Source: a virus
Reading direction: 5' to 3' (one strand)
IMG/VR virus record: IMGVR_UViG_3300030328_002939
Coordinates: 1-27,459 of that record
Length of the DNA stretch: 27,459 nt
Below are positions 173 to 20,352 of this stretch, piece after piece (positions within the stretch are counted from its first letter, which is position 1; every line of letters starts with the position of its first letter). The translations under genes and the position numbers were made by a program. The notes under the pieces are model-generated. The model was not told where the DNA came from. It saw only the letters and a program-made list of their open reading frames with translations, and did not search any database.

Positions 173-493
173 ATGGGCGTAGTAGTATCAAACACTAACG
201 TAGGTATGTTTTCTAATAGCAATGCTATTGGAGAAGCCTGTGATGTTCAAGAAACTTCAAATATAAGCTTACAAGGTTTATGTGAAGGAGGACAAGGTAT
301 GACTTTCGGTAGTGGTGGTGGACCAGCTAATGATTTTGATAAGATAGGTGGTAGTAATAATCCATTACAAGCAACTGGAGATTCCAATGCTACGTCTGCT
401 AATTTAACTGATATTGGTAATGCACCTTTCAATATGAGTCATTGTATTGGAGGGGAACATACTAGTGGTGGTGGCTTTGGTGGTGGTCGATGA
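173..493 (+). CDS. Glycine-rich 106-residue protein ending in an FGGGR tail
   Basis: The protein is low in charge and rich in Gly, Asn and Ser, with glycine clusters near residues 37-50 (EGGQGMTFGSGGG), 58-60 and 93-105 (IGGEHTSGGGFGGG), and Arg as its last residue. There is no signal peptide or membrane segment. The ribosome site is weak (AAAGG upstream of 173). The stop overlaps the start of the methyltransferase gene by 4 nt (ATGA), so the two are probably translationally coupled. Glycine-rich motifs of this kind occur in T-even gp38-type receptor-binding adhesins and in eukaryotic RGG substrates of arginine methyltransferases. Neither resemblance amounts to a family assignment. Function unknown. 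Confidence 0.75.
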   Translation: MGVVVSNTNVGMFSNSNAIGEACDVQETSNISLQGLCEGGQGMTFGSGGGPANDFDKIGGSNNPLQATGDSNATSANLTDIGNAPFNMSHCIGGEHTSGGGFGGGR

Positions 494-1143
494 AGAATCA
501 TGCTAAAAACGTTACCTACACAATTACAGATGATTGTATTATAGACGAATCTACAGGTTGGGATGTTATGTCTACCTGGGAAACTCCTATTATGCAATTA
601 CACGCTGATATGGTTTGTGCTAATGGAGGACACATATTAGAGTTTGGATTTGGTATGGGAATTAGTGCTGGTTTAATACAAGAGCACGATATTGAATCTC
701 ATACGATCATTGAAATTAATGATGGAATATATGATAGACTGGTAGAATGGGCTAAAGATAAGCCTAATGTAATACCAGTTAAAGGTGATTGGTATGATGA
801 CATACCGACAACTAGAAAGTATGATGGTATATTTTATGATGGTTTTGGAGATATGGCTAATAAAAGATTTTTTCCAAGTCGTATTATGCAACATTGTAAA
901 GAAGGAACTATCCTTACTTGGTATAGTAACTTTCTAGAAAAACAAAGTCAGTATGACGGAGATATAAAAAAGATAGATGGTCACCAAAAAATTGAGCAGT
1001 TCGATAGAACTGAAAGAATTACATACCAACAAGTAGAGCTTGAAATACCAGATAAAGCTAGAATAGATTGGTATTTAAAAGGTGAGGGTAATACATATTA
1101 CGCACCACAACTAATAACAGACAATACCGATATAGGGGGATAA
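490..1143 (+). CDS. SAM-dependent methyltransferase of the guanidinoacetate/arginine N-methyltransferase (GAMT/RMT2-like) type
   Basis: This 217-residue protein reads like GAMT from end to end. It has WETPIM at residues 30-35 (GAMT has WETPYM), the SAM-binding motif LEFGFGMGISA at 50-60, and IIEINDG at 73-79, where the acidic residue should hold the SAM ribose. It also has VIPVKGDW at 94-101, YDGIFYDGF at 111-119 (GAMT has FDGILYDTY), and a C-terminal YYAPQLIT (GAMT has YYAFPQMIT). From memory of rat GAMT, Glu45 and Asp134 bind the guanidino group; the matching phage residues are E31 and D117, both present. A guanidino or arginine substrate is therefore plausible, though the actual target is unknown. 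The start overlaps the Gly-rich gene by 4 nt, and the next gene begins 1 nt after the stop. It should act in the host cytoplasm, late in infection given its neighbours. A different small-molecule or protein methyltransferase remains possible. Confidence 0.88.
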   Translation: MKNHAKNVTYTITDDCIIDESTGWDVMSTWETPIMQLHADMVCANGGHILEFGFGMGISAGLIQEHDIESHTIIEINDGIYDRLVEWAKDKPNVIPVKGDWYDDIPTTRKYDGIFYDGFGDMANKRFFPSRIMQHCKEGTILTWYSNFLEKQSQYDGDIKKIDGHQKIEQFDRTERITYQQVELEIPDKARIDWYLKGEGNTYYAPQLITDNTDIGG

Positions 1144-3190: not shown

Positions 3191-5657
3191 CTTTAGTGGT
3201 GGTCTAAATGAAAAGACCACTCCAAGAGATATAGGACCAAACGAGTTTCAACGTGCAGATAATATGAACAATGAAATTCCTGGTAAGTTAACTCTATTTG
3301 GAGAGTCTGTAAATGGTCCATATACTTCTGATATAGGGACTGGAGGAAATCCTTTACTAACCTTAAATCATGGTAATGGATTATATAAAGTTACTTTAGA
3401 TCGTGATGTAGATGATGAATCTATTGGACCTAATCAATATTTATTTATAAATGATTCTGCAGATAAGACAGTTCGTATTATAGACATCACTAATGAATCA
3501 AGCGGTTCATTAGCTACAAAAACAATTGTATATGGTAATAATGCCTCTATGCTTGATATGTATACTTTAGATGGAACAACTAGAATAGTGCCAACATATG
3601 TATCGGGTGGTTCAAATACAAACAAACCTAAGGTTTTTGAATATTATAATTATTCTAGAAAGTTGGGAACTAGTAGCTCAGAAAGCATTACTAGTACAGC
3701 AGAGTTATATAGCACAGAAGATATGTTTATAGCTCCATTAAGAAATGGCAGTGTAACTAATTATTCTTACGATCCAGACACATTACATGATACACATACG
3801 TTTCGTCCTAATTCAAGTTCTGAAGTATATCTTTATGCTAATCCTACTGTTAACTCTAGTGATCAAATTACTAATTTTTCTAACTTAACATCAGACCTTG
3901 CTAATTATGCTGCCGTAGATGGACGTAATTATAGTAGTGGATATGGATCTATGGCTATTATGGCACATTTTTCTGATGGAACAGCAGATGCAGATGGCGG
4001 TGCTATATTAGTTAGTACTGGATATAGGTATGGATTGTTTTGTTCTTTAGTTTATAAAAATCAAGATGGACTATCTGAACAAGAGTCTTATCCTACTTTT
4101 ATTGGAGTAGCTAATCAAGATATTGAACAAGAAGGAACTCATGCAGATAAACATCAAAAGCTATTCATAAATCTTGTAGGTAGGCTTGGAAATAAAGCAA
4201 ACAGAGTTGCTGGATTTAAAGTTTACTGGTCTAGAATTAAAAACTTTATACATGCAACAACAACAGTTGAAGCAAAAGGTAATGTTGGAGCTAAGTATTT
4301 ATTGTTTGAGGTTGACTATGAAAAAGGTCTTCGTTTAGCAGGAAAAGATACTTACTCCATATTTAGAGAGATGGACGTAGGTTCTGATGTTCATCAATTT
4401 CTTTATCCTCAAGATTCTTGGAATGGAGCGACAGACAATACAAGCTCATTTTCATACTTAAAAGGTGCAGCAATATCAGAGCTTTCTGTTTTAGAGCCTT
4501 ACACTGGTTCTAAAAAGAATACTTCCATAGGAAGACAAGGAACAACTTTTAAAACTAGCGTTATGATTAATAGAAGACTTTATGTTGGTAACGTATCCTA
4601 CTATGATGATCTTGGTAATTTAATTACTAAGAATGATAGAGTTTTAAAATCTATGCCTAATAAATTTGATTATTTCCCTTCTAATAGTTTTTTAGATGTA
4701 GCAGTAGAAGATGGAGATGAAATTGTACATTTAGCTACAGTAGGTAGTAAGTTACTGCAATTTAAAAAACGAAAATTATTTATTGTGAACTGTCAGAGAG
4801 ATTTAGAATTTGTAGAAGCTGATTTAGACTTTAAAGGATGTGAGTATTCATACCACGTAGTATCAGGGCCAGGGTTTGTTGCTTGGATAAACAGACAAGG
4901 GGCATATATGTATGATGGTCAACGTTTATATGATCTAGATATATCAAAGTCTGGTCAAGCTCGTTTTGATAGCTTCTACGGCAAATTAGGAGGTTCTATT
5001 GTAGATGCTGGATTTTCAGAAAGCCAAATAGCATATTTACCAGAATCAAAAGAATTGATTATAGTTAATCCTTCTGGACAAATATTGAAATATGATATGA
5101 AGTCAGAGAGTTGGTCTGAAGGTAAAAACTTCGATAAGAATGCGGACTCTAGTAATGTAATAACAAGAGCATCAGATGCTGATTTAACTAACTTAGTAAC
5201 CACAGATAGTGGACAACTATTTTATGCAATAGAAAGAAATGGTTCAAGTCCAAATAATACTGTTAGGTTGCGTAAATGGAATAATGATCCTGCTGCCTTT
5301 ACAGCTAATGGACAAGTAATGCTAAAGACAAAAGAATACGATATGGAATCTCCTTCTGTAAATAAAAGCATTACTACTGTTTATATTAATTATAAAAGAG
5401 GAGAGAATATTTTAATTAGAGGGTTTGCTACTAGAGATGGTTCTCAGGTAACAGATAATTTAGTTTCTGGTTCTACTTTAGAGTTGTCAAATACAACAAG
5501 TGAATTTAAAACTCAGAAAATAAATGTTTCCAATAGTGTTTTTAAACATGTTAATGCTTTTGGTTTAGAACTATACGCAGATAGTAGTGGTACTGTACAT
5601 AAAGATTTTGCTATTAATGATATACAAATCGTTTTTAGAGAAAAGGTAGGTAGATGA
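3162..5657 (+). CDS. Tail tubular/nozzle-type virion protein (T7 gp12-like)
   Basis: This 831-residue protein opens with ILNLNNFSGGLNEKTTPRDI, the kind of N-terminus found in large tail tubular or stabilisation proteins of podoviruses (T7 gp12-like). The middle of the protein is mostly beta-strand-rich. Residues about 525-660 hold repeated blade-like segments (LLQFKKRKLFIV, GFVAWINRQGAYMYDGQRLY, QIAYLPESKELIIV) like the propeller-type body of tail nozzle proteins. It should sit at the tip of the short tail and guide DNA out. Its position before the ejection-type proteins fits. It contains a few cysteines, unlike the block downstream. The ribosome site is weak, and translation may be coupled to the overlapping basic gene. 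The family assignment is by pattern, not by search. Confidence 0.75.
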   Translation: MPKKILNLNNFSGGLNEKTTPRDIGPNEFQRADNMNNEIPGKLTLFGESVNGPYTSDIGTGGNPLLTLNHGNGLYKVTLDRDVDDESIGPNQYLFINDSADKTVRIIDITNESSGSLATKTIVYGNNASMLDMYTLDGTTRIVPTYVSGGSNTNKPKVFEYYNYSRKLGTSSSESITSTAELYSTEDMFIAPLRNGSVTNYSYDPDTLHDTHTFRPNSSSEVYLYANPTVNSSDQITNFSNLTSDLANYAAVDGRNYSSGYGSMAIMAHFSDGTADADGGAILVSTGYRYGLFCSLVYKNQDGLSEQESYPTFIGVANQDIEQEGTHADKHQKLFINLVGRLGNKANRVAGFKVYWSRIKNFIHATTTVEAKGNVGAKYLLFEVDYEKGLRLAGKDTYSIFREMDVGSDVHQFLYPQDSWNGATDNTSSFSYLKGAAISELSVLEPYTGSKKNTSIGRQGTTFKTSVMINRRLYVGNVSYYDDLGNLITKNDRVLKSMPNKFDYFPSNSFLDVAVEDGDEIVHLATVGSKLLQFKKRKLFIVNCQRDLEFVEADLDFKGCEYSYHVVSGPGFVAWINRQGAYMYDGQRLYDLDISKSGQARFDSFYGKLGGSIVDAGFSESQIAYLPESKELIIVNPSGQILKYDMKSESWSEGKNFDKNADSSNVITRASDADLTNLVTTDSGQLFYAIERNGSSPNNTVRLRKWNNDPAAFTANGQVMLKTKEYDMESPSVNKSITTVYINYKRGENILIRGFATRDGSQVTDNLVSGSTLELSNTTSEFKTQKINVSNSVFKHVNAFGLELYADSSGTVHKDFAINDIQIVFREKVGR

Positions 5658-9783: not shown

Positions 9784-12700
9784 ATGCTTAACCTTGACAA
9801 TAGGATCTTACTCCTTCAAAAAGAACTTGAACGAGGTGCTTTAGATGAATTTCAATATGCTGTAGCACTTCAAAAGTTTTATAGTCGTAGACCTGGTACT
9901 TTTAATACCAGAAGTTTACGTTATATGGAGTCTAAAATCAATGAAGCTGGCTTACCTTTAACTGAAGGTAGGCAAGGAAAAAGCGATGGTTTCTTAGCAC
10001 AAACAGTATCTGGTTTCATAGAAGGTTTTACTACTTTTGGATTTGCAGATACTCCCGATACTTCAGCCGAACGTATTGCTAATAATGTTGGACATTTAAT
10101 TGGATTAGCACCAGGTATTGTTGTACAAGCAATATCTGGTACTGGTGCAGCTGTTGGTGTAGTTAAAAGTGGATTAAAACATAAAGCAAAACAAACTGGT
10201 AGTAAAAAACTTTCTAAGGTAGCAGACAAACTAGAAGACGCTTCAACAAGTATTGGTAATACAAATTATAAATTTCAAAAAGGTCTAGATAAGTTAGCTA
10301 GATTTACCAAGCTTAAAGGTACAGCTATAGGAGTAGATAGGGCTACTGGTGAAAAACTTTATGGTTTACAATCTTTTCCAGGTATGGCGGCTCATTATAT
10401 ACAAAAACAAGCAGCGGGCAGTATACATAGAACTACCAATACGGCTGTAGACTATATGAATAAAGGTTTATTCAAGAGTAAATTCTTAGATAAGGAAGCT
10501 GCAAAAAACATTATAGATCAATCTGTTCACGTAGGATTGCTTTTAGCAGCGTCTGCACAACCTCTAGGTACACGAGGTGAAGGTTTTAAAGGAATGGCTA
10601 TGGCTGGAGTGCATGGTGCTGTAGCTGGTGGTATATTCGGAAGTATAGGAGAGTATGTTAACATAGGTAGAATGCTTGGAAGTTCTAATGCAACTATTAG
10701 AAAATCTGGGGAAAATGTTGTTAGGTCTTTTGCTAAAGCATTAGGAACACAGCCAAATAGAATTGACCAATATAATACTATTAATTTTATGATGCGTGGT
10801 GGTGCAGGTGCAACCTATGGTACTGTTACATCTAAGCTTCACGACCTACCTTTAGAAGATCAAATTTATGAAACATTGCTATCGACTTTCTTCTCTGTAA
10901 ATAGTAGAGCAGCTTTTGAGAATAGAGCAACTAGAGACATATATAACTCTATGAATGCAATACCAAGAGATTATAATATGAAGGAAGCTCGTAAATGGCT
11001 TACAGAGCAGCCTTGGTATCAAAATGAAACACCAGAATATCAAGCTTATTGGAGTAGGTATTTAAAAAATATTCAACAACAACAAATAGATTATACTATT
11101 AATCAATATAATGATATTGTTTTAACCTATGCAGAGATTTACAAGAAGTTAAAGGATGAAGGTAAAATAACTCCTGAAATGGAAGAAAAAGCAAAAACAG
11201 ATTCTAAAGCAAAAGAGAAAATACTGGGAGAGATGTATGATGCTTTAGATAAGCAGCGTTCTGACATAGAGGACCAAATTCAAGTTAATATCACAGAACA
11301 GAAACTTGGAGACCTAGATCAGGTAGCTAAAGATATTGAAAATAAGAAATTTAGACTTGACTCTATTACATTAGAAGATGGAAGAACGATTGAGTATCAA
11401 GTACAGGAAGTTGATCCTTTGTCTGAGCATTTGCCTAAACAAAAATCTTTAAAAAGTGTATTTTTAAGTATTAGAAAAAAAGGACAAGATGTTGGTGTAC
11501 AAGATTTACATAATATGTTTAAAAAGACTATTGATGATGCTCAATATGATGTTAAGCAATTTGTTTGGGATGTAGAAAAAACATATGGAATAAAGTTAAG
11601 TGAATCACAAAAAAGAGACTTGATACAATCTGCTCATTATCTTAAAAATATAGACAGGTATCCTATCGCTAGAATTTATTTAGTATCAGAGGGCGCTCTT
11701 AAAAAAGATAAAGATATGGATCCAATACTAGAAGAGCAGGCTCCTGAAACAGATATATACGATAAACCTATTGGTGGTTCAAAAAATAATGATCCGAAAT
11801 ACGGAACTAGTCGTGTAAATAAAAATTACGATAAAAGACAAGATGTGGATGAGCCTAAAACTCTTCATTACGATATTGATTATCTTACAACACGTGTTTT
11901 ACAACGTTACTGGGATACTGCTTCTGATAGTTATAAAAAAAGACCTAGAGTAAAAAACGTTGCACCTTTATCTGTAGATATATTCCAATATATTCCAGAA
12001 GGGAAAACTGATAAAAAAGGTAATCGTATTAGACCTATACAATTAGCAGAATTTATGAATAATAAGCAGTTTGATAAACTGGCAAAAGATTTAAATAAAA
12101 AAAATGCTTTTATCTATGCAGCAAATGGCGCAACTGGTAGAATACAAATTAGACAATATCCATTTAAATCAAAGGATGATGATTCAATACCTGGTATGTA
12201 CTTAACAGGAAAAGATATTACTAGTATAAATGACGCTTTAATAGCTGCTGGTATACCAGTCACAAAAGTTAGAAAGAAAAGCAATGTTGCAACCTTGATA
12301 TGGAGAATGATAGAAACTGGAGTATTGAGAACTCAATCTAAAGAATATAATCACTTAAATGCTGGCATTAAATATGAAAGTCAGATGTCCAGAAAAGATG
12401 GAAAAAACCTAAATGCAGAGCATATAAAAGGAAAAATACAAGAATGGATTGATAAAGAACCTTATGAAAGTTTAACTAAATTCCAAAAACGTACTAAACA
12501 TCATTCTGGTATTGAGATAGCTTTAGATCCTCAATACTTTATGAAGTATAAAAATATTTCTAGAATACGTCAAATAGATATGGATTCGTTTGACCCTAGT
12601 TCATTTACAGAGATTAAATTACCTTTAGATGTTTCTGCGATAAGACGTGTATTACATGATAAGCTTTATGCAGACGTTAACATAAAGCCTATCTTTGACA

Positions 12701-15700
12701 ATGTATACATTAATTTAAAGGGCAAGCGTAACAGTAAGTCCAATAACGACCTATACGAGCAGTTTGAAAAAGATAATCCAGAGATAGTGAAAGAAGTTGC
12801 TGATTGGAATAAAAATGTTCTAGATAGAATAGAGTCAGGTTCTTATAAAGACCAAGACTCTTTTAGTGATTTAAGCTTTACTGAACTGTCAAAAATTCCA
12901 GAATTTACTCCACTAATTCAACTTCCAAAATCTTCTATAAGCACATACGATGGTGCAAACTTTAAGCATATTATCATTGAAGACTTACCAAGTAGTGTTA
13001 AAAATATGGGTGAGGCTATTAAAAAGAATAATTCAGGAACAGATGGTGGTACTATGGTAAATCAAAACATTGCTAAAATTGTTATAGGTGAATATGGCTA
13101 TGATCCACGTACTGGGGTAATGAAAACATTGGGAGTGTTTAGACCTGATGCATGGCAAAAAATTGGTCAAACAATTAATAAGACAGCTGATTTTACTATG
13201 GATGATTACTGGCAGAAATTTGCAGATACGCATGGAATAGATAAAATACACTATGCGTCTGGTATTAAAGAATCTACTGGAATAGATGTAACAAAAGTAA
13301 GGTGGAATGAAGCTACTAAAGAATTTGAGTTAGTTGGAAAGTTAAATGCATTTGAATCTAAGATAGAAGACAACTACTTAAATTTAAATGTCTATGAAAA
13401 CTTTGGTAAAATAGGTAATCAAAAATTAATTCAACAAATTATGTCAAATATAAATTCTTTTGAAATGGATCCAGCTACAGATATTGGTAAAAAGTTTTGG
13501 GATAAGTGGGAAGATATGGTTTCTAAGTCGTCTGTAGGAGATCCTAAAGAAACCTTAATAGCTGAAAAAGAATTTTTAGCAGACAAGGAATTGTCTGTAA
13601 ACATTGATAATATAGATATAAGATTAATAGATAGAATTTTATATGATAGTCCAGATAGCAATGCAGCAAAAAGTATTTTAAAACAAATATTTGAAATAGA
13701 ACGTAATTCAGATTTTGATAAACAATCAATGCAAGACTGGAATGATTATAGGCAGAATACATATAACAGACAGTTGGTAGAAGACTATTTAATCGATACC
13801 GACTTTGATCCTGGAACCTACTTAAGACCTGGTGTTAGAGAGTATGTTAATGAAAGAATACAATCATACGTATCTAAACGTTTGACTAGACCACGTATTA
13901 AGCACTCATATAGCTCTAAATTGGGCCTATATGACGTTTTAATCAGTGGACGTAAGCAAAAGTACTCTAAACTTAAGAAAGGGCTTGCAAACGATGAATT
14001 TATGATGAATGAAGGAGCAAGAGATGTTATTGAAGTTAGTGTATATGAAGGGAAAAAGAATCAGAAGACAATGACATTAGGAGAGTTTTGGGACACTTGG
14101 GTTTATATGAAAGAGAATCCTACTACCAAAAGAGCACAAAAGGACTTTGAGGAATATGAAAATGTTCGTAAGAACGTTGCTTTTGTAAGATCTCCTATGA
14201 TTAGTAATGGTGGTTTCCGTATCGGAGAGTTTGTAGGGTTTGCTAAAACACGTAAGGGAATATCACTTATTACTAATGAATATAATGATTTCATGATGTC
14301 TGGTGCTGATAAAGATATTGATTCAGCTCATATGTTCTGGGGTTTGCCTAAGGAATTAGTAGATGTTTATAAACAATCTCAAATACAGGACCAATTAGTT
14401 AGGACTGTAAACGGTAAAAAAGATACTGTAGATTTAAAAGATGAAGACATAGCTGCTCAACTAGCTAGTGCTGAAGGTGCAAAAGAAAAGAGCAGAGAAA
14501 AGCATTTAGCTGATATATTAGATACTAAAGCAAAGCTAGATAATGGTAAAATTTCTACAATGTCAGAAGACTCTATTGGTTTAATTACTAATGGAGTTAA
14601 TTTAATAGGACTTGAATTAGATATTAATAAGCAGTTAGAAGATTCTACTATTCGTTCTGGAGAAAGTTCCTGGTTAAATAAAGATAAGTATACTAAATCT
14701 TTTAGACAGTTAATTATTGATAAGAACGTATTGTTAAATACCTATATTGATGCAGCAGATTTATCAAATATAGATCTTCCTATCGTATCATTGCGTAATA
14801 TGCGTAATAGGTATGCTTTTATGTATGAAGGATCTGTTTCTGGAAACTTGGAAGCTAGAAGACAAGCAATAAATAATATGCATAAAGTTATATTTGGATT
14901 TAAAAAGCAAGGTGATATACCTTTAAATACTCAGGAAGTTGCATTAGACTATCTATTAAAAACGGATGGTGCTAAATCTTATCTAGGTATTCTTGCAGAA
15001 CACTATAAAGGATTGCGTCTAGAGTTAAATCCTTGGAATGTTTTTAGTAAAGAACAAACTATATCGCTATTAAAAGATATATCAACTGAAATTCAGAAAC
15101 ATCCTATCTATAGAAAAGTTGGTATGAAAGATTTCTCTGAGCATTTCTTAAAAGGATTAGATCCTAAAGAGTTTGATAACATTATTGAATATGAAACTTT
15201 TTTATGGAATAAAGTGAACCAGGTAGTTGACCTATCAAATGCTTTAATACGTTCTCAGTCTTTTAAAGAATATGCAATAAAAGAACTTGAGATGACAAAT
15301 GAATCTGTAGATGATTTCATTACACAGGTAGTAGAGCTAACATTTGAGCAGCGTAATAGAATATATCAAGCTTTTAATAATAATCAACAGTATTATAAGA
15401 AACACAATACTCGTTCTTATGGAGATCAAATATCTATAACCAAAGCGATGTTAATGGACCAGTTAGATAGTCTTTCTAATCGTAGGAAAACAGAGGGTAA
15501 ACCATTACCAGAGAGAGCTTATAGAGAGGTAGAAGATTTGTTTGATACATTTTATATAGCTACTCCATTAGTTAAATTAGATTTTGTAGGTTTTAGAGGA
15601 GAGCAACGTTTTAAAAGATTAAAAGAAGTAAACAATGGTATTAAATCTCTTGTAGAGAAAAAACAAGATATGGAAAAGAAAGGAATCTTCTTTAATCAAG

Positions 15701-18700
15701 ATGACGCCTTAGAAGCTTTATACAGACAACGTGGTGCTTTGCAGGCTGAAATGACTGGTATGCTTCCTGATCGTGAACAGACTTGGGCTATTAGACCTAG
15801 AAATAAAAGGTATATGTCTGAAACAAGGCATCAGGTTCTTAAGATGGCTGAACAAACTAGAGAAGAACGCATAAAAACAATACGTGACTTACTTGAATTG
15901 GATAAGTTTGAACAAGAATCTTTAGATACTTTAAATCCTCCTCCTAATGGGAGACAGTCTAAAGTGGAATTACAGGAAGGGCAAGACGTTGTACTAAAAA
16001 CAAAGAAAATGGTTCCCGACTTAATTGACATGGACGTATTAACAGATCCAAAAAAATTAGATGCATTAATAGACAGCTTAAAACCTTTAAAGAAAACACA
16101 AACAGATGAATTGAGAAAAAATCTTAAAGACTTTAAAGACTTAATATATCAACAAACAGCATTAGGTAATGAAACTTTCCTATTTAATTTACCTAGTGAA
16201 TACTCTTTCTTTCTAAAACGTATAGATAGAAAATCTGATTTTATACAAAATGTTGATGGTTTGCGTTTTGGTTTGTTTATGAAATCAATGAAAATCAAAT
16301 ATGATAAAGACGATGTATTTTCTAAGATTAAAAGGAATAAAGAACTACTATCTGAAGTAGAAAATGTTTTGTATGCAGATATTTCTAATGATACACCTAT
16401 ATTATCATTTGATGAATATATGTTAAAGCATTATCCCGATATGATTCAAAAAGTAATTACAGATGCAAAAGGTAAACTAAAGAGTGGACCTTCTTATGCA
16501 AACGATCTTCGTTTAATTAAACTTATGGAAGACGTAAAAAAAGATTACCAGAAAAAGCCTGGTATGGAAAAAATTAATATGAGCGTAAAGTCTTTTGAAG
16601 ACGCCAAACTTTTATATCAAGATTATGTCCAGATGTGGCTTACGGCGAATAAGAAGACGCTTACTAATATAGCCGAAAATACAACTGGTAAGCTTTTAAA
16701 GGATTCGGACAAAAAGTCTTATTTTTATAATTCAAAAGATAAAAGAGTTAGAGCTTTTGATAGCAGTATGACTGAAAAGATATTGAAAGATAAAAATAAT
16801 GAACTTCTAGAAGTGAGTAGATTGAGCGATTATGTAACAAATGAAATAAATCTTTTATTCCCTCTTGAACAGCATTTAAGAGATCCTAAAAAATTAGACC
16901 AAATATTAGGTCTTTATCAAAGATTAGACAAGGAGCTTGCTCCATTTGAACAGAAATTACAGTTTGATCGTGTTATAAAATTCAACGAAAAAACTGGACA
17001 AATGGAAGAATATGGAATAACAGTCCCTACTAGTACTTTAAAGACTGTGGCAGAGGGTATATATCGTTTACACGTTAATGCTAATCAAATATCAGACTTC
17101 CATACAAAGATTGTAGGATTCCAAAAGAAAACATTAGCAGAAGAACAAAAGGGATATAAGGATAATGCCAATGTATTGTGGGAGTATGCAGCAGTTAAGC
17201 ACACTTTAGGTGAAGATAAATTAGGACCTAAACGTGAAAACACTACAATTGAAGAAGTTGTAGATTTAAATACTAGGTTAGAAAAAGCTGAAAAAGAAAT
17301 AAACAAAATAAATCAAAAATTTTATTATGTGAATAAAGAAGGAAGAAAGATTTGGGTAGAACCTAAAGAGTATGCGGATATAATTATATCTGAAGTTATA
17401 CAACCGTTAATGGATTACTCTTTAAGGTCTATGATTAAAAGTAATTATAAAAATATTTCTAGATATTTCCAAGATCAAAAAACTTTTAAATTAGAATATT
17501 CTCCTAAGAAGTATTTACTAGAAGGTCATCCAAAACACTATATGCAAGAGCTCTCTCAATTGTTTTTAAATAAGCATGGACTTATAGAGGTTAGACGTTT
17601 GCTTTGGTTTGATAAAACAGTTCGATTGAGCCAAGATAAACAAACTGGTGTTGAAATGCTTAAAAATCATTTCCACTTAGATGATATAACATGGATTAAG
17701 TTTCATTTAAATTTACGTGATCATATTTTAGATAAGTATAGTGATTATGTTACCAAAGGAGGTTCTTTAGATTGGGTAGCATTATCTAAAGCTAAAATAA
17801 AAGTAAATAAAAAAGATATAACTATGGATAAAGTTGTTAGGAAAGAGATTAGAAAATTCTCTAGACAATTCGGTGAATGGAAAAGCGAAGTAGGTAAGTT
17901 TGCACTAGATGGAGTTTCTGATAGATTTTATCCACAAATGGGACAAAAAGATGTTGCTGAGAATGTTAAATACTTAGAAGAGGTTTGGTTACCTTCAGAA
18001 AAAGAACGTATTATGAATAAAAAGAATTGGGAACAATTAACAGACTCTCAACTACGTGATGACGTAAAGTATGGCTATATAAGTTTTCAAGACGCTAAAC
18101 AATTAGAATACCAAAGAATAGAAAATAAATTGCTTGGTACAAATAGATTTGAAAATCCATATGTTGATAAAGAAGCTTTAGATATGTTCAATCAAATAAC
18201 AACTAGAAAAGGTAAAAATCCATATCCTGGTCAAGGAGTGACTACTCACGCAAGATCAAGATTAGAGCGTTCTATGCCTGGGTGGAGAAGTGATGGTAAT
18301 GTGCCTTTGGACTATATGAATAGTTTAAGTAGGGGTGTTATGCAAAATATAGGTGCTATGTATTCTAGGATTTATTTAGATAAATTTTTACAACAAGCCA
18401 GAAGAAATCCTCGCATGAGTGAAAATGCAGATATTTGGCATCAAACTATGGTTGATTACACTAGAGGTTATATGGGATTCCCTTCTACAAGAATTTTAGA
18501 AGTTTATGGTGTATCTAAAAAAGAAATGAATCTTTTAAAAGAATGGCAAAAAGCTGGTTTTAATCAAGACTGGAAAGTTGGAAAATTGGATGCAGTATCT
18601 AAAAAATTATTATGGGATGTAGAGCAAAGCTCTATTCCTACAATGAGCGAACAACGTTCTACGAAAAAAAGTCTTATAGCACAAAGCTATAAATTAAAAA

Positions 18701-20352
18701 GTAAGGAGATTAAAAAATTAAGAGATGAATATAAAATAGCTAGTAAAGAACGTAAGATGGAAATACAAGCAGAGCTTGCTAACATTAAAAGTGAAATGTT
18801 TTCTACTACTAAAAAAGCATTTTCTAAATGGCTTCAAAGAGAAACTCTTAAAAATATGGAAGACTTTATTAAGCCTTCAAATATAGATAAATTAAATATT
18901 AGAAAGACTCCTAGACAATGGTTTAGTGATGAATCTGTTGGTAATGCTATGCTAAGAATAGAACAAAGAGTTACAAAAGTCTATGGTAAGATTACGGGTG
19001 ATAAGATGTTTAAATCATTACCAGACGATATTCAATTAAGACATAAAGCATTAGTAGAACGTGCTCAATATATTTCAGATCTTGAAGGTCGTTTTGAAGT
19101 TTTATCATTACTGTTTGCACCTAAAGCAGCTATAACAAATGTATATGGTGGTTATCAAAACATTATTACTGATACTGGATTTGATCATTTCTTTAAAGCT
19201 GGTGATGAAAAGTATTTAATTAAGGATGTTTTTGCTGGTCAAAAGTTTAAACTGTTTAATAAAAAGACTGGTAAGTTTGAATTTAGAGAGTTGGAAAACA
19301 AAGAAGATATTTTTGAAATGATAGATTCTTTAGGATTGCTTGAAGGTAACCTTCTACAAGAATTAGCTTATATACAAGCAAATGAACCAACCAATGTAAA
19401 GGCTTTCTTAAAAGAACTTGCTCAGAAAGTTCAAGCACATACTAGAGCTGAAAAATTATATGGAAACTCTAAAGAAGTAAATGAAAAAATAGACACCTAT
19501 GTTAAGAAAACAGTAGGGGAAATATATAGAAAGCATAGAGTTGATAAGCAAGTAATGGATAAGGGTAGTTATTTTATGTCTGCAACAGAAAAACATTTAC
19601 GTAGAAAAGCGTTTTTAGCACACTACCTAAAAGCAAGAGAGATATATTCAGATTTACGAGGAAATATACAAGTAACAGATGAATTCCTAGTAGATGCTGC
19701 TAGAAAAGGTGTTGAGGGATCTCAATTTATTTATCACGCAACTTATAGACCTAATTTCAGTAATACTGCTTTTGGACGTATAATGACTAGATTCCAACCT
19801 TATGCCTGGAATAGTATACGTAGAAGAAAGACTGGTTTTGAAGATATGATGGCTGCAGAAGGACATCCTCAATTTGAAGCTACAAAAAGATTTGAAAGAC
19901 AAGTTGCTAATGATATGATGACCATGGCATTGGCTACATTATTTCCATATTCTATATTTGAATATGCATTATCTCCTCCTATGTCATGGATGAAAGAAAC
20001 TGCAGAGTTTTTATTTGGAGATGAAGAAACGAGAAAGAAAGCATTCTTCAATCAGTATCCAATACAAGCACTGGCTCCTTTACAAATTATTACACCACCA
20101 GTAAGTAGATTTATATTACCACCTTTAAATGGTATTATAAATGGAGACTGGGAAGCTTTTACTAAGTATACTCTTTGGACTTATTTCCCTGGAGGAAGAT
20201 TTGCTCGTGATCTTTATAAAACAGTAGATAATCCAAAGTATGCAGTAGAGTATCAAACTGGAATACCTTATAATAGTATGCAATGGCACCTCTCAAGAGT
20301 AAAGCGTCAAGCGGAGGAGCGAGATAAAAATAACGAAGATCCTACGACTTGA
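9784..20352 (+). CDS. Giant (3522-residue) internal virion/ejection-type protein
   Basis: One uninterrupted frame of 3522 residues, mostly charged and helical, with hydrophobic segments near both ends. Near the N-terminus, residues about 80-125 (FIEGFTTFGFADTPDTSAER, then a Gly/Ala/Val-rich stretch), 250-290 and 333-373 could insert into membranes. Near residue 1085 is GTDGGTMVNQNIAKIVIG. The last 220 residues carry a conserved-looking block (GVEGSQFIYHATYRPNFSNT followed by MTRFQPYAWNSIRRRK, about 3308-3350) and hydrophobic helices near 3375-3450. This end resembles the ends of large polyvalent/gp16-like phage proteins as I remember them. No cysteine occurs in the protein. It takes the T7 gp16 position in the gene order, so it is probably packed in the capsid and ejected with the DNA. 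N4 virion RNA polymerase has similar size, but its catalytic motifs were not found by eye. No enzyme domain could be assigned. Confidence 0.7.
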   Translation: MLNLDNRILLLQKELERGALDEFQYAVALQKFYSRRPGTFNTRSLRYMESKINEAGLPLTEGRQGKSDGFLAQTVSGFIEGFTTFGFADTPDTSAERIANNVGHLIGLAPGIVVQAISGTGAAVGVVKSGLKHKAKQTGSKKLSKVADKLEDASTSIGNTNYKFQKGLDKLARFTKLKGTAIGVDRATGEKLYGLQSFPGMAAHYIQKQAAGSIHRTTNTAVDYMNKGLFKSKFLDKEAAKNIIDQSVHVGLLLAASAQPLGTRGEGFKGMAMAGVHGAVAGGIFGSIGEYVNIGRMLGSSNATIRKSGENVVRSFAKALGTQPNRIDQYNTINFMMRGGAGATYGTVTSKLHDLPLEDQIYETLLSTFFSVNSRAAFENRATRDIYNSMNAIPRDYNMKEARKWLTEQPWYQNETPEYQAYWSRYLKNIQQQQIDYTINQYNDIVLTYAEIYKKLKDEGKITPEMEEKAKTDSKAKEKILGEMYDALDKQRSDIEDQIQVNITEQKLGDLDQVAKDIENKKFRLDSITLEDGRTIEYQVQEVDPLSEHLPKQKSLKSVFLSIRKKGQDVGVQDLHNMFKKTIDDAQYDVKQFVWDVEKTYGIKLSESQKRDLIQSAHYLKNIDRYPIARIYLVSEGALKKDKDMDPILEEQAPETDIYDKPIGGSKNNDPKYGTSRVNKNYDKRQDVDEPKTLHYDIDYLTTRVLQRYWDTASDSYKKRPRVKNVAPLSVDIFQYIPEGKTDKKGNRIRPIQLAEFMNNKQFDKLAKDLNKKNAFIYAANGATGRIQIRQYPFKSKDDDSIPGMYLTGKDITSINDALIAAGIPVTKVRKKSNVATLIWRMIETGVLRTQSKEYNHLNAGIKYESQMSRKDGKNLNAEHIKGKIQEWIDKEPYESLTKFQKRTKHHSGIEIALDPQYFMKYKNISRIRQIDMDSFDPSSFTEIKLPLDVSAIRRVLHDKLYADVNIKPIFDNVYINLKGKRNSKSNNDLYEQFEKDNPEIVKEVADWNKNVLDRIESGSYKDQDSFSDLSFTELSKIPEFTPLIQLPKSSISTYDGANFKHIIIEDLPSSVKNMGEAIKKNNSGTDGGTMVNQNIAKIVIGEYGYDPRTGVMKTLGVFRPDAWQKIGQTINKTADFTMDDYWQKFADTHGIDKIHYASGIKESTGIDVTKVRWNEATKEFELVGKLNAFESKIEDNYLNLNVYENFGKIGNQKLIQQIMSNINSFEMDPATDIGKKFWDKWEDMVSKSSVGDPKETLIAEKEFLADKELSVNIDNIDIRLIDRILYDSPDSNAAKSILKQIFEIERNSDFDKQSMQDWNDYRQNTYNRQLVEDYLIDTDFDPGTYLRPGVREYVNERIQSYVSKRLTRPRIKHSYSSKLGLYDVLISGRKQKYSKLKKGLANDEFMMNEGARDVIEVSVYEGKKNQKTMTLGEFWDTWVYMKENPTTKRAQKDFEEYENVRKNVAFVRSPMISNGGFRIGEFVGFAKTRKGISLITNEYNDFMMSGADKDIDSAHMFWGLPKELVDVYKQSQIQDQLVRTVNGKKDTVDLKDEDIAAQLASAEGAKEKSREKHLADILDTKAKLDNGKISTMSEDSIGLITNGVNLIGLELDINKQLEDSTIRSGESSWLNKDKYTKSFRQLIIDKNVLLNTYIDAADLSNIDLPIVSLRNMRNRYAFMYEGSVSGNLEARRQAINNMHKVIFGFKKQGDIPLNTQEVALDYLLKTDGAKSYLGILAEHYKGLRLELNPWNVFSKEQTISLLKDISTEIQKHPIYRKVGMKDFSEHFLKGLDPKEFDNIIEYETFLWNKVNQVVDLSNALIRSQSFKEYAIKELEMTNESVDDFITQVVELTFEQRNRIYQAFNNNQQYYKKHNTRSYGDQISITKAMLMDQLDSLSNRRKTEGKPLPERAYREVEDLFDTFYIATPLVKLDFVGFRGEQRFKRLKEVNNGIKSLVEKKQDMEKKGIFFNQDDALEALYRQRGALQAEMTGMLPDREQTWAIRPRNKRYMSETRHQVLKMAEQTREERIKTIRDLLELDKFEQESLDTLNPPPNGRQSKVELQEGQDVVLKTKKMVPDLIDMDVLTDPKKLDALIDSLKPLKKTQTDELRKNLKDFKDLIYQQTALGNETFLFNLPSEYSFFLKRIDRKSDFIQNVDGLRFGLFMKSMKIKYDKDDVFSKIKRNKELLSEVENVLYADISNDTPILSFDEYMLKHYPDMIQKVITDAKGKLKSGPSYANDLRLIKLMEDVKKDYQKKPGMEKINMSVKSFEDAKLLYQDYVQMWLTANKKTLTNIAENTTGKLLKDSDKKSYFYNSKDKRVRAFDSSMTEKILKDKNNELLEVSRLSDYVTNEINLLFPLEQHLRDPKKLDQILGLYQRLDKELAPFEQKLQFDRVIKFNEKTGQMEEYGITVPTSTLKTVAEGIYRLHVNANQISDFHTKIVGFQKKTLAEEQKGYKDNANVLWEYAAVKHTLGEDKLGPKRENTTIEEVVDLNTRLEKAEKEINKINQKFYYVNKEGRKIWVEPKEYADIIISEVIQPLMDYSLRSMIKSNYKNISRYFQDQKTFKLEYSPKKYLLEGHPKHYMQELSQLFLNKHGLIEVRRLLWFDKTVRLSQDKQTGVEMLKNHFHLDDITWIKFHLNLRDHILDKYSDYVTKGGSLDWVALSKAKIKVNKKDITMDKVVRKEIRKFSRQFGEWKSEVGKFALDGVSDRFYPQMGQKDVAENVKYLEEVWLPSEKERIMNKKNWEQLTDSQLRDDVKYGYISFQDAKQLEYQRIENKLLGTNRFENPYVDKEALDMFNQITTRKGKNPYPGQGVTTHARSRLERSMPGWRSDGNVPLDYMNSLSRGVMQNIGAMYSRIYLDKFLQQARRNPRMSENADIWHQTMVDYTRGYMGFPSTRILEVYGVSKKEMNLLKEWQKAGFNQDWKVGKLDAVSKKLLWDVEQSSIPTMSEQRSTKKSLIAQSYKLKSKEIKKLRDEYKIASKERKMEIQAELANIKSEMFSTTKKAFSKWLQRETLKNMEDFIKPSNIDKLNIRKTPRQWFSDESVGNAMLRIEQRVTKVYGKITGDKMFKSLPDDIQLRHKALVERAQYISDLEGRFEVLSLLFAPKAAITNVYGGYQNIITDTGFDHFFKAGDEKYLIKDVFAGQKFKLFNKKTGKFEFRELENKEDIFEMIDSLGLLEGNLLQELAYIQANEPTNVKAFLKELAQKVQAHTRAEKLYGNSKEVNEKIDTYVKKTVGEIYRKHRVDKQVMDKGSYFMSATEKHLRRKAFLAHYLKAREIYSDLRGNIQVTDEFLVDAARKGVEGSQFIYHATYRPNFSNTAFGRIMTRFQPYAWNSIRRRKTGFEDMMAAEGHPQFEATKRFERQVANDMMTMALATLFPYSIFEYALSPPMSWMKETAEFLFGDEETRKKAFFNQYPIQALAPLQIITPPVSRFILPPLNGIINGDWEAFTKYTLWTYFPGGRFARDLYKTVDNPKYAVEYQTGIPYNSMQWHLSRVKRQAEERDKNNEDPTT

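Follow-up and report, generated by a model that had tools for sequence, protein, structure and literature searches.

The window analysed here is the whole of a linear viral record (IMGVR_UViG_3300030328_002939) of 27,459 bases, from a marine phage, and the genes and motifs described below for positions 173-1447 lie on its plus strand. A small glycine-rich protein of 106 amino acids is encoded at 173-493, conserved directly upstream of a methyltransferase gene and presumed to be both partner and substrate of that enzyme. Its C-terminal tail reads GGGFGGGR (467-490), with Arg106 specified by the codon CGA at 488-490, and its stop codon overlaps the start of the methyltransferase gene in an ATGA (490-493). 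This overlap recurs in nearly all enzyme-bearing relatives, with GTGA in its place in L086 and non-overlapping genes in L068. The methyltransferase itself (490-1143) is a 217-amino-acid SAM-dependent enzyme resembling guanidinoacetate methyltransferase (GAMT) in translation, PDB matches and predicted fold, and is followed by a small protein (1145-1447) that forms a conserved flank; in several phages without the methyltransferase, this gene comes directly after the glycine-rich one. More complete relatives share a gene order in which a tail-fibre gene, whose product has an S74 chaperone domain, is followed by the glycine-rich gene and the methyltransferase, some with an extra small gene between the first two. 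The glycine-rich partner had no PHROG or Pfam match and its structure was predicted with low confidence (pLDDT 49), and it is presumed to be a tail-tip protein from gene order and glycine content. Elsewhere in the window, a 3522-amino-acid open frame without PHROG match (9784-20352) probably encodes a giant internal virion protein.

The assignment of the methyltransferase rests on PDB matches and fold, since curated profiles gave no match above threshold (none in Pfam or PHROGs, and in NCBIfam only a sub-threshold one to MnmC2). Across all PDB chains, phmmer placed human GAMT (3orh, E 2.3e-22) and rat GAMT (1xcj, 5.3e-22) on top, far beyond chance given that the next unrelated entry scored 0.27, and a profile built from 18 close relatives again ranked GAMT first (8e-23). 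An AlphaFold model based on a 26-row alignment reached pLDDT 89 and pTM 0.89; Foldseek ranked GAMT first for this model, and VIA-align superposed the two with Z 20.9 over 192 amino acids at 2.5 A, the next family being NodS at Z 15.2. The translation contains WETP (residues 30-33), the SAM-binding motif LEFGFGMG (50-57; 637-660), IIEINDG (73-79), YDGIFYDGF (111-119) and YYAPQLIT (203-210), and E51, G53 and G55 of the SAM motif are invariant in all alignment rows with a letter there. In rat GAMT, Glu45 holds the guanidino group. The phmmer alignment to 1xcj (chain residues 36-137) sets E31 (codon 580-582) opposite this Glu45 and D117 (838-840) opposite Asp134, neither adjoining a gap. Among 103 distinct relatives, the E31 column is Glu in 99 of the 100 sequences that have a residue at this position, and the D117 column is Asp in all 103.

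A preliminary description had recognised these blocks and the retention of both acids from the sequence, and this account stands: the profile searches returned no other methyltransferase family at curated cut-offs, the predicted fold is closest to GAMT, and by sequence and fold alignments E31 and D117 would occupy GAMT pocket positions. A GAMT-like protein that keeps the putative guanidino-binding acids is thus supported by alignment, by model and by the near-invariance of both residues. Two further enzyme classes were considered and rejected. Protein arginine methyltransferases (PRMTs) of types I-III carry a THW loop, which is absent from the 217-amino-acid sequence, and this length is too short for their C-terminal beta-barrel after the core; the (D/N/S)PP(Y/F) motif of DNA N6/N4 methyltransferases is likewise absent from the sequence. 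A methyltransferase of another kind (acting on nucleic acid, carboxylate or lysine) that merely resembles GAMT seems very improbable: the class I fold is common to many enzymes, and VIA-align scored many of them at Z 13-15, but GAMT lies far above all others in both sequence and fold, and the catalytic Asp is invariant.

The GAMT lineage, the near-invariant catalytic acids, the gene overlap and the setting in a tail locus are features of the data; what the enzyme acts on has to be argued from them. An arginine in a protein is the target suggested by the location in a tail locus, the gene overlap and the Arg at the end of the partner, and our leading interpretation, to which we give a probability of roughly 40%, is a GAMT-type enzyme that would methylate the C-terminal Arg of its tail partner, or another one nearby. 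Judged by the gene overlap, enzyme and glycine-rich protein would be produced from the same message. The enzyme would then transfer a methyl group from SAM onto the guanidino group of a partner arginine, most likely the one ending the poly-Gly tail; E31 and D117 would hold that group in the manner of the GAMT residues E45 and D134. Such a methylated end, located at the tail or fibre tip, might tune receptor binding or protect the terminus.

The C termini of the upstream proteins bear on this proposal. Those that are intact in the window's subfamily all end in Gly-Arg (GGGFGGGR, GGGGGR or GGGPGR), and such an end was present in 21 of 21 distinct enzyme-bearing cases checked, be it on the glycine-rich protein or on an unrelated replacement. 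A scan of the glycine-rich family yielded 80 loci with 61 distinct proteins for comparison. Arg is the last residue in all 22 distinct proteins accompanied by the enzyme but in only 13 of the 39 that lack it (Fisher 7e-8), and among tailed proteins the counts are 20/20 against 13/24 (Fisher 3e-4). Enzyme-free proteins end in GPGR, GPGQ or GGGFGGGQ, or have no tail, and in these the last residue has switched between Arg and Gln several times (e.g. L095, L101, L142). The 13 distinct enzyme-free proteins that also end in Arg count against the C-terminal residue as target. When descent was taken into account, six independent pairs on supported branches remained, of which about three agreed and none opposed (median p 0.25), a weak association from a test too small for power, so that the link between Arg end and enzyme presence is no more than suggestive. 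A whole-record search of the enzyme-free phages found no methyltransferase elsewhere in these records, which are fragments; it was partly repeated with positive controls, which were detected.

A second, unrelated upstream family shows the same type of ending. Its members L022 (AAGGGGGGR) and L068 (QGGGGGGR) both bear the enzyme, and no likeness besides the tail was detectable between the two partner families. Across 80 loci of this second family, the tail was confined to the enzyme-bearing protein (L022/L155); with L068 included, Gly-Arg tails occur in 2/2 proteins with the enzyme and in 0 of about 74 without, and the closest enzyme-free relative (L156, 68% identical) ends in RMTGL. The enzyme tree suggests that partners have changed: the L019 and L028 enzymes fall among enzymes that belong to a different partner clade, and the L022 enzyme falls with L023, L025 and L027. 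Ends of this kind also precede unrelated genes, and the end alone is no predictor of the enzyme: a DNA search for GGGGR*-ATGAA, blind to the enzyme, gave at least 16 plausible pairs, two of them with this enzyme among the matches listed. In L320, L376, L342, L381 and L393, proteins of unrelated phages end in GGGGR overlapping the next gene start, in two recurrent settings.

The Gly codons of the tail carry a second signal. Shine-Dalgarno-like GAGG or GGAGG lies within them, ahead of the overlapping start, in 20 of 21 enzyme-bearing genes and in one of 29 without the enzyme (Fisher 9e-12), while the window's own tail is without GAGG. In the last 27 bases of L078, L084, L136 and others, Gly codons differ synonymously, with GGTGGAGGT where the enzyme is present and GGTGGTGGA where it is absent. 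Codon choice of the GGTGGAGGT type creates a putative ribosome-binding site within the coding tail, and the tail codons may for this reason travel with the gene for its translation; the Arg could then be hitch-hiking with the methyltransferase gene. This opens a somewhat unlikely explanation, in which the enzyme does act on a protein of the tail or fibre, though at a site other than the C-terminal Arg, such as an Arg within the chain, a different residue or the neighbouring fibre, the Arg tail being inherited via the ribosome-binding site in the Gly codons. Besides the codon counts, it would account for L022, whose last codons are the same as those of L004 and L009 and whose enzyme clusters with theirs, as if tail end and gene had moved together, and for the Gly-Arg or Gly-Gln tails kept by enzyme-free relatives too. 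Yet Gln (CAA) would permit the same ATGA overlap and Arg is kept in all, and in phages lacking the enzyme GGGPGR and GGGPGQ are spelled with a different set of codons, as expected if the peptide is kept for itself.

The same explanation draws on a distant group of phage relatives, whose associated tail proteins have no Gly-Arg end. In the greater part of the wider family, enzymes of 183-194 amino acids are encoded directly after a long gene, the product of which often ends like YFNPDNTWVEIA (51/81 by a simple motif); some of these upstream proteins match tail-fibre profiles, others have no match. Their want of a Gly-Arg end counts against the C-terminal Arg as target. Directly downstream of the distant-group methyltransferase, 64 of 81 loci encode a protein of about 230 amino acids with an invariant Arg (62/62), after which there are usually two or three Gly residues. 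The tail-like loci of this group, together with an adjoining protein that has an invariant Arg, were counted in favour of our leading interpretation, although this Arg may be structural. In L267, L274, L261 and others, the Arg of the R-G-G(-G) motif lies near residue 50-60. No Pfam or PHROG match was found for the R-G-G protein in the members tested, nor a match apart from the enzyme in phages, and all family members but one lay downstream of the enzyme.

The preliminary description had called such an enzyme unusual in a phage, which did not hold: a broader profile finds a relative encoded at no fewer than 491 places in IMG/VR, and one UniProt entry already bears a GAMT name. Close relatives in uncultured viruses numbered 32 loci, or 34 with a profile; uncultured phages, for the most part marine, commonly carry relatives, and among named or cultured phages only the 635-kb LR745206 matches. 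The loci examined are mostly tail-fibre loci. Other settings occur as well. In L069, a SET-domain-like protein (judged by eye; 3550-4017) lies directly upstream of and overlaps the GAMT-like gene, which is followed by a helicase-like gene, without tail genes. In L072, a relative (3935-4489) lies between two TPTPT-rich tail-like genes and has WIRP in place of WETP, so that the guanidino-binding Glu is lost and the Asp kept. A first scan of genome contigs found no relatives and a second found three, and bacterial relatives are present in Streptomyces, Thiothrix and Saprospiraceae. On a Flavobacteriales MAG contig (NZWA01000020.1, L237), the phage triplet of fibre-like protein, methyltransferase and R-G-G protein is present, and the contig is for this reason probably of phage origin, placed in a bacterial bin. 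On the Streptomyces plasmid NZ_CP107895.1 (L235, 1520-4558), the GAMT-like gene adjoins genes for a 2-ketoarginine methyltransferase and a beta-methylarginine aminotransferase, a possible natural-product gene group.

This Streptomyces neighbourhood was counted in favour of our leading interpretation, and it also lends something to an explanation in which the phage enzyme methylates a free guanidino compound (guanidinoacetate, arginine or a derivative), thereby changing host metabolism or supplying an osmolyte. Such a reaction is that of true GAMT, whose fold and both acids are kept. Against it, the phage gene is tied to tail-fibre loci, with an overlapping partner in the window's subfamily, and after residue 145 the protein differs from GAMT through an insertion with little helix. 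Because the gene lies mostly in tail loci, we regard a free host compound as improbable and favour a virion arginine over small-molecule chemistry. Slightly more tentatively than for the window's own pair, we propose that a large, so far unrecognised GAMT-type branch in tailed phages might consist of dedicated protein-arginine methyltransferases acting on tail proteins, and that in the window's branch a portable C-terminal poly-Gly-Arg tag might be coupled to the enzyme in a module movable onto unrelated tail proteins. If true, phages would encode their own means of methylating arginine at the end of the tail that binds the receptor, and the case would illustrate how an enzyme of the creatine type can be redirected to proteins. 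Methylation of phage virion proteins has only just been reported, in phages without known methyltransferase genes (PMC13288928). In the family described here, an obvious candidate target accompanies the enzyme, and the two genes form a pair open to direct expression and measurement.

Among known systems, the closest viral match in the structure library is A0A8D9CBY1 from an uncultured marine phage (E 4e-15), a "Putative guanidinoacetate methyltransferase" in UniProt whose name was presumably assigned by similarity and for which we found no published context or substrate; a search of the open-access literature for phage GAMT returned nothing. The family label for phage relatives is already in UniProt, hence not new by itself. 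What is new is the genomic context of these enzymes, in which a known fold and known catalytic residues are combined with a substrate that is probably new. Another related system is RMT2 (protein arginine N-methyltransferase 2, type IV), the fungal Ndelta-Arg enzyme, whose catalytic domain is related to GAMT and acts on arginine in proteins. The glycine-rich partner resembles T-even gp38-type tail-tip adhesins, in which Gly-rich motifs flank variable receptor-binding loops (PMC12892980, PMC8651126), in being small, Gly-rich and encoded just after the tail fibre; no PHROG or Pfam family matched it, and its model is of low confidence. In GAMT, as PMC12471008 (citing Komoto 2004) describes, the SAM methyl group is transferred to a guanidino nitrogen and the proton passes to Asp134. 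The phage enzyme, at about 30% identity, shares with GAMT the sequence over residues 22-146, the class I fold, the SAM motif, the equivalents of E45 and D134 and a C-terminal YYAP.LIT-like strand. It departs from GAMT at the N-terminus and in the loop that follows TWY, both of which are shorter, and at about 150-175 it has a long insertion with little helix; the final strand aligns, whereas neither the length nor the secondary structure of 145-195 is that of GAMT. The shorter N-terminus and the divergent 145-195 region are as expected if the substrate is other than guanidinoacetate, and, unlike GAMT, the phage enzyme is encoded in a tail locus, its gene overlapping that of a Gly-rich partner.
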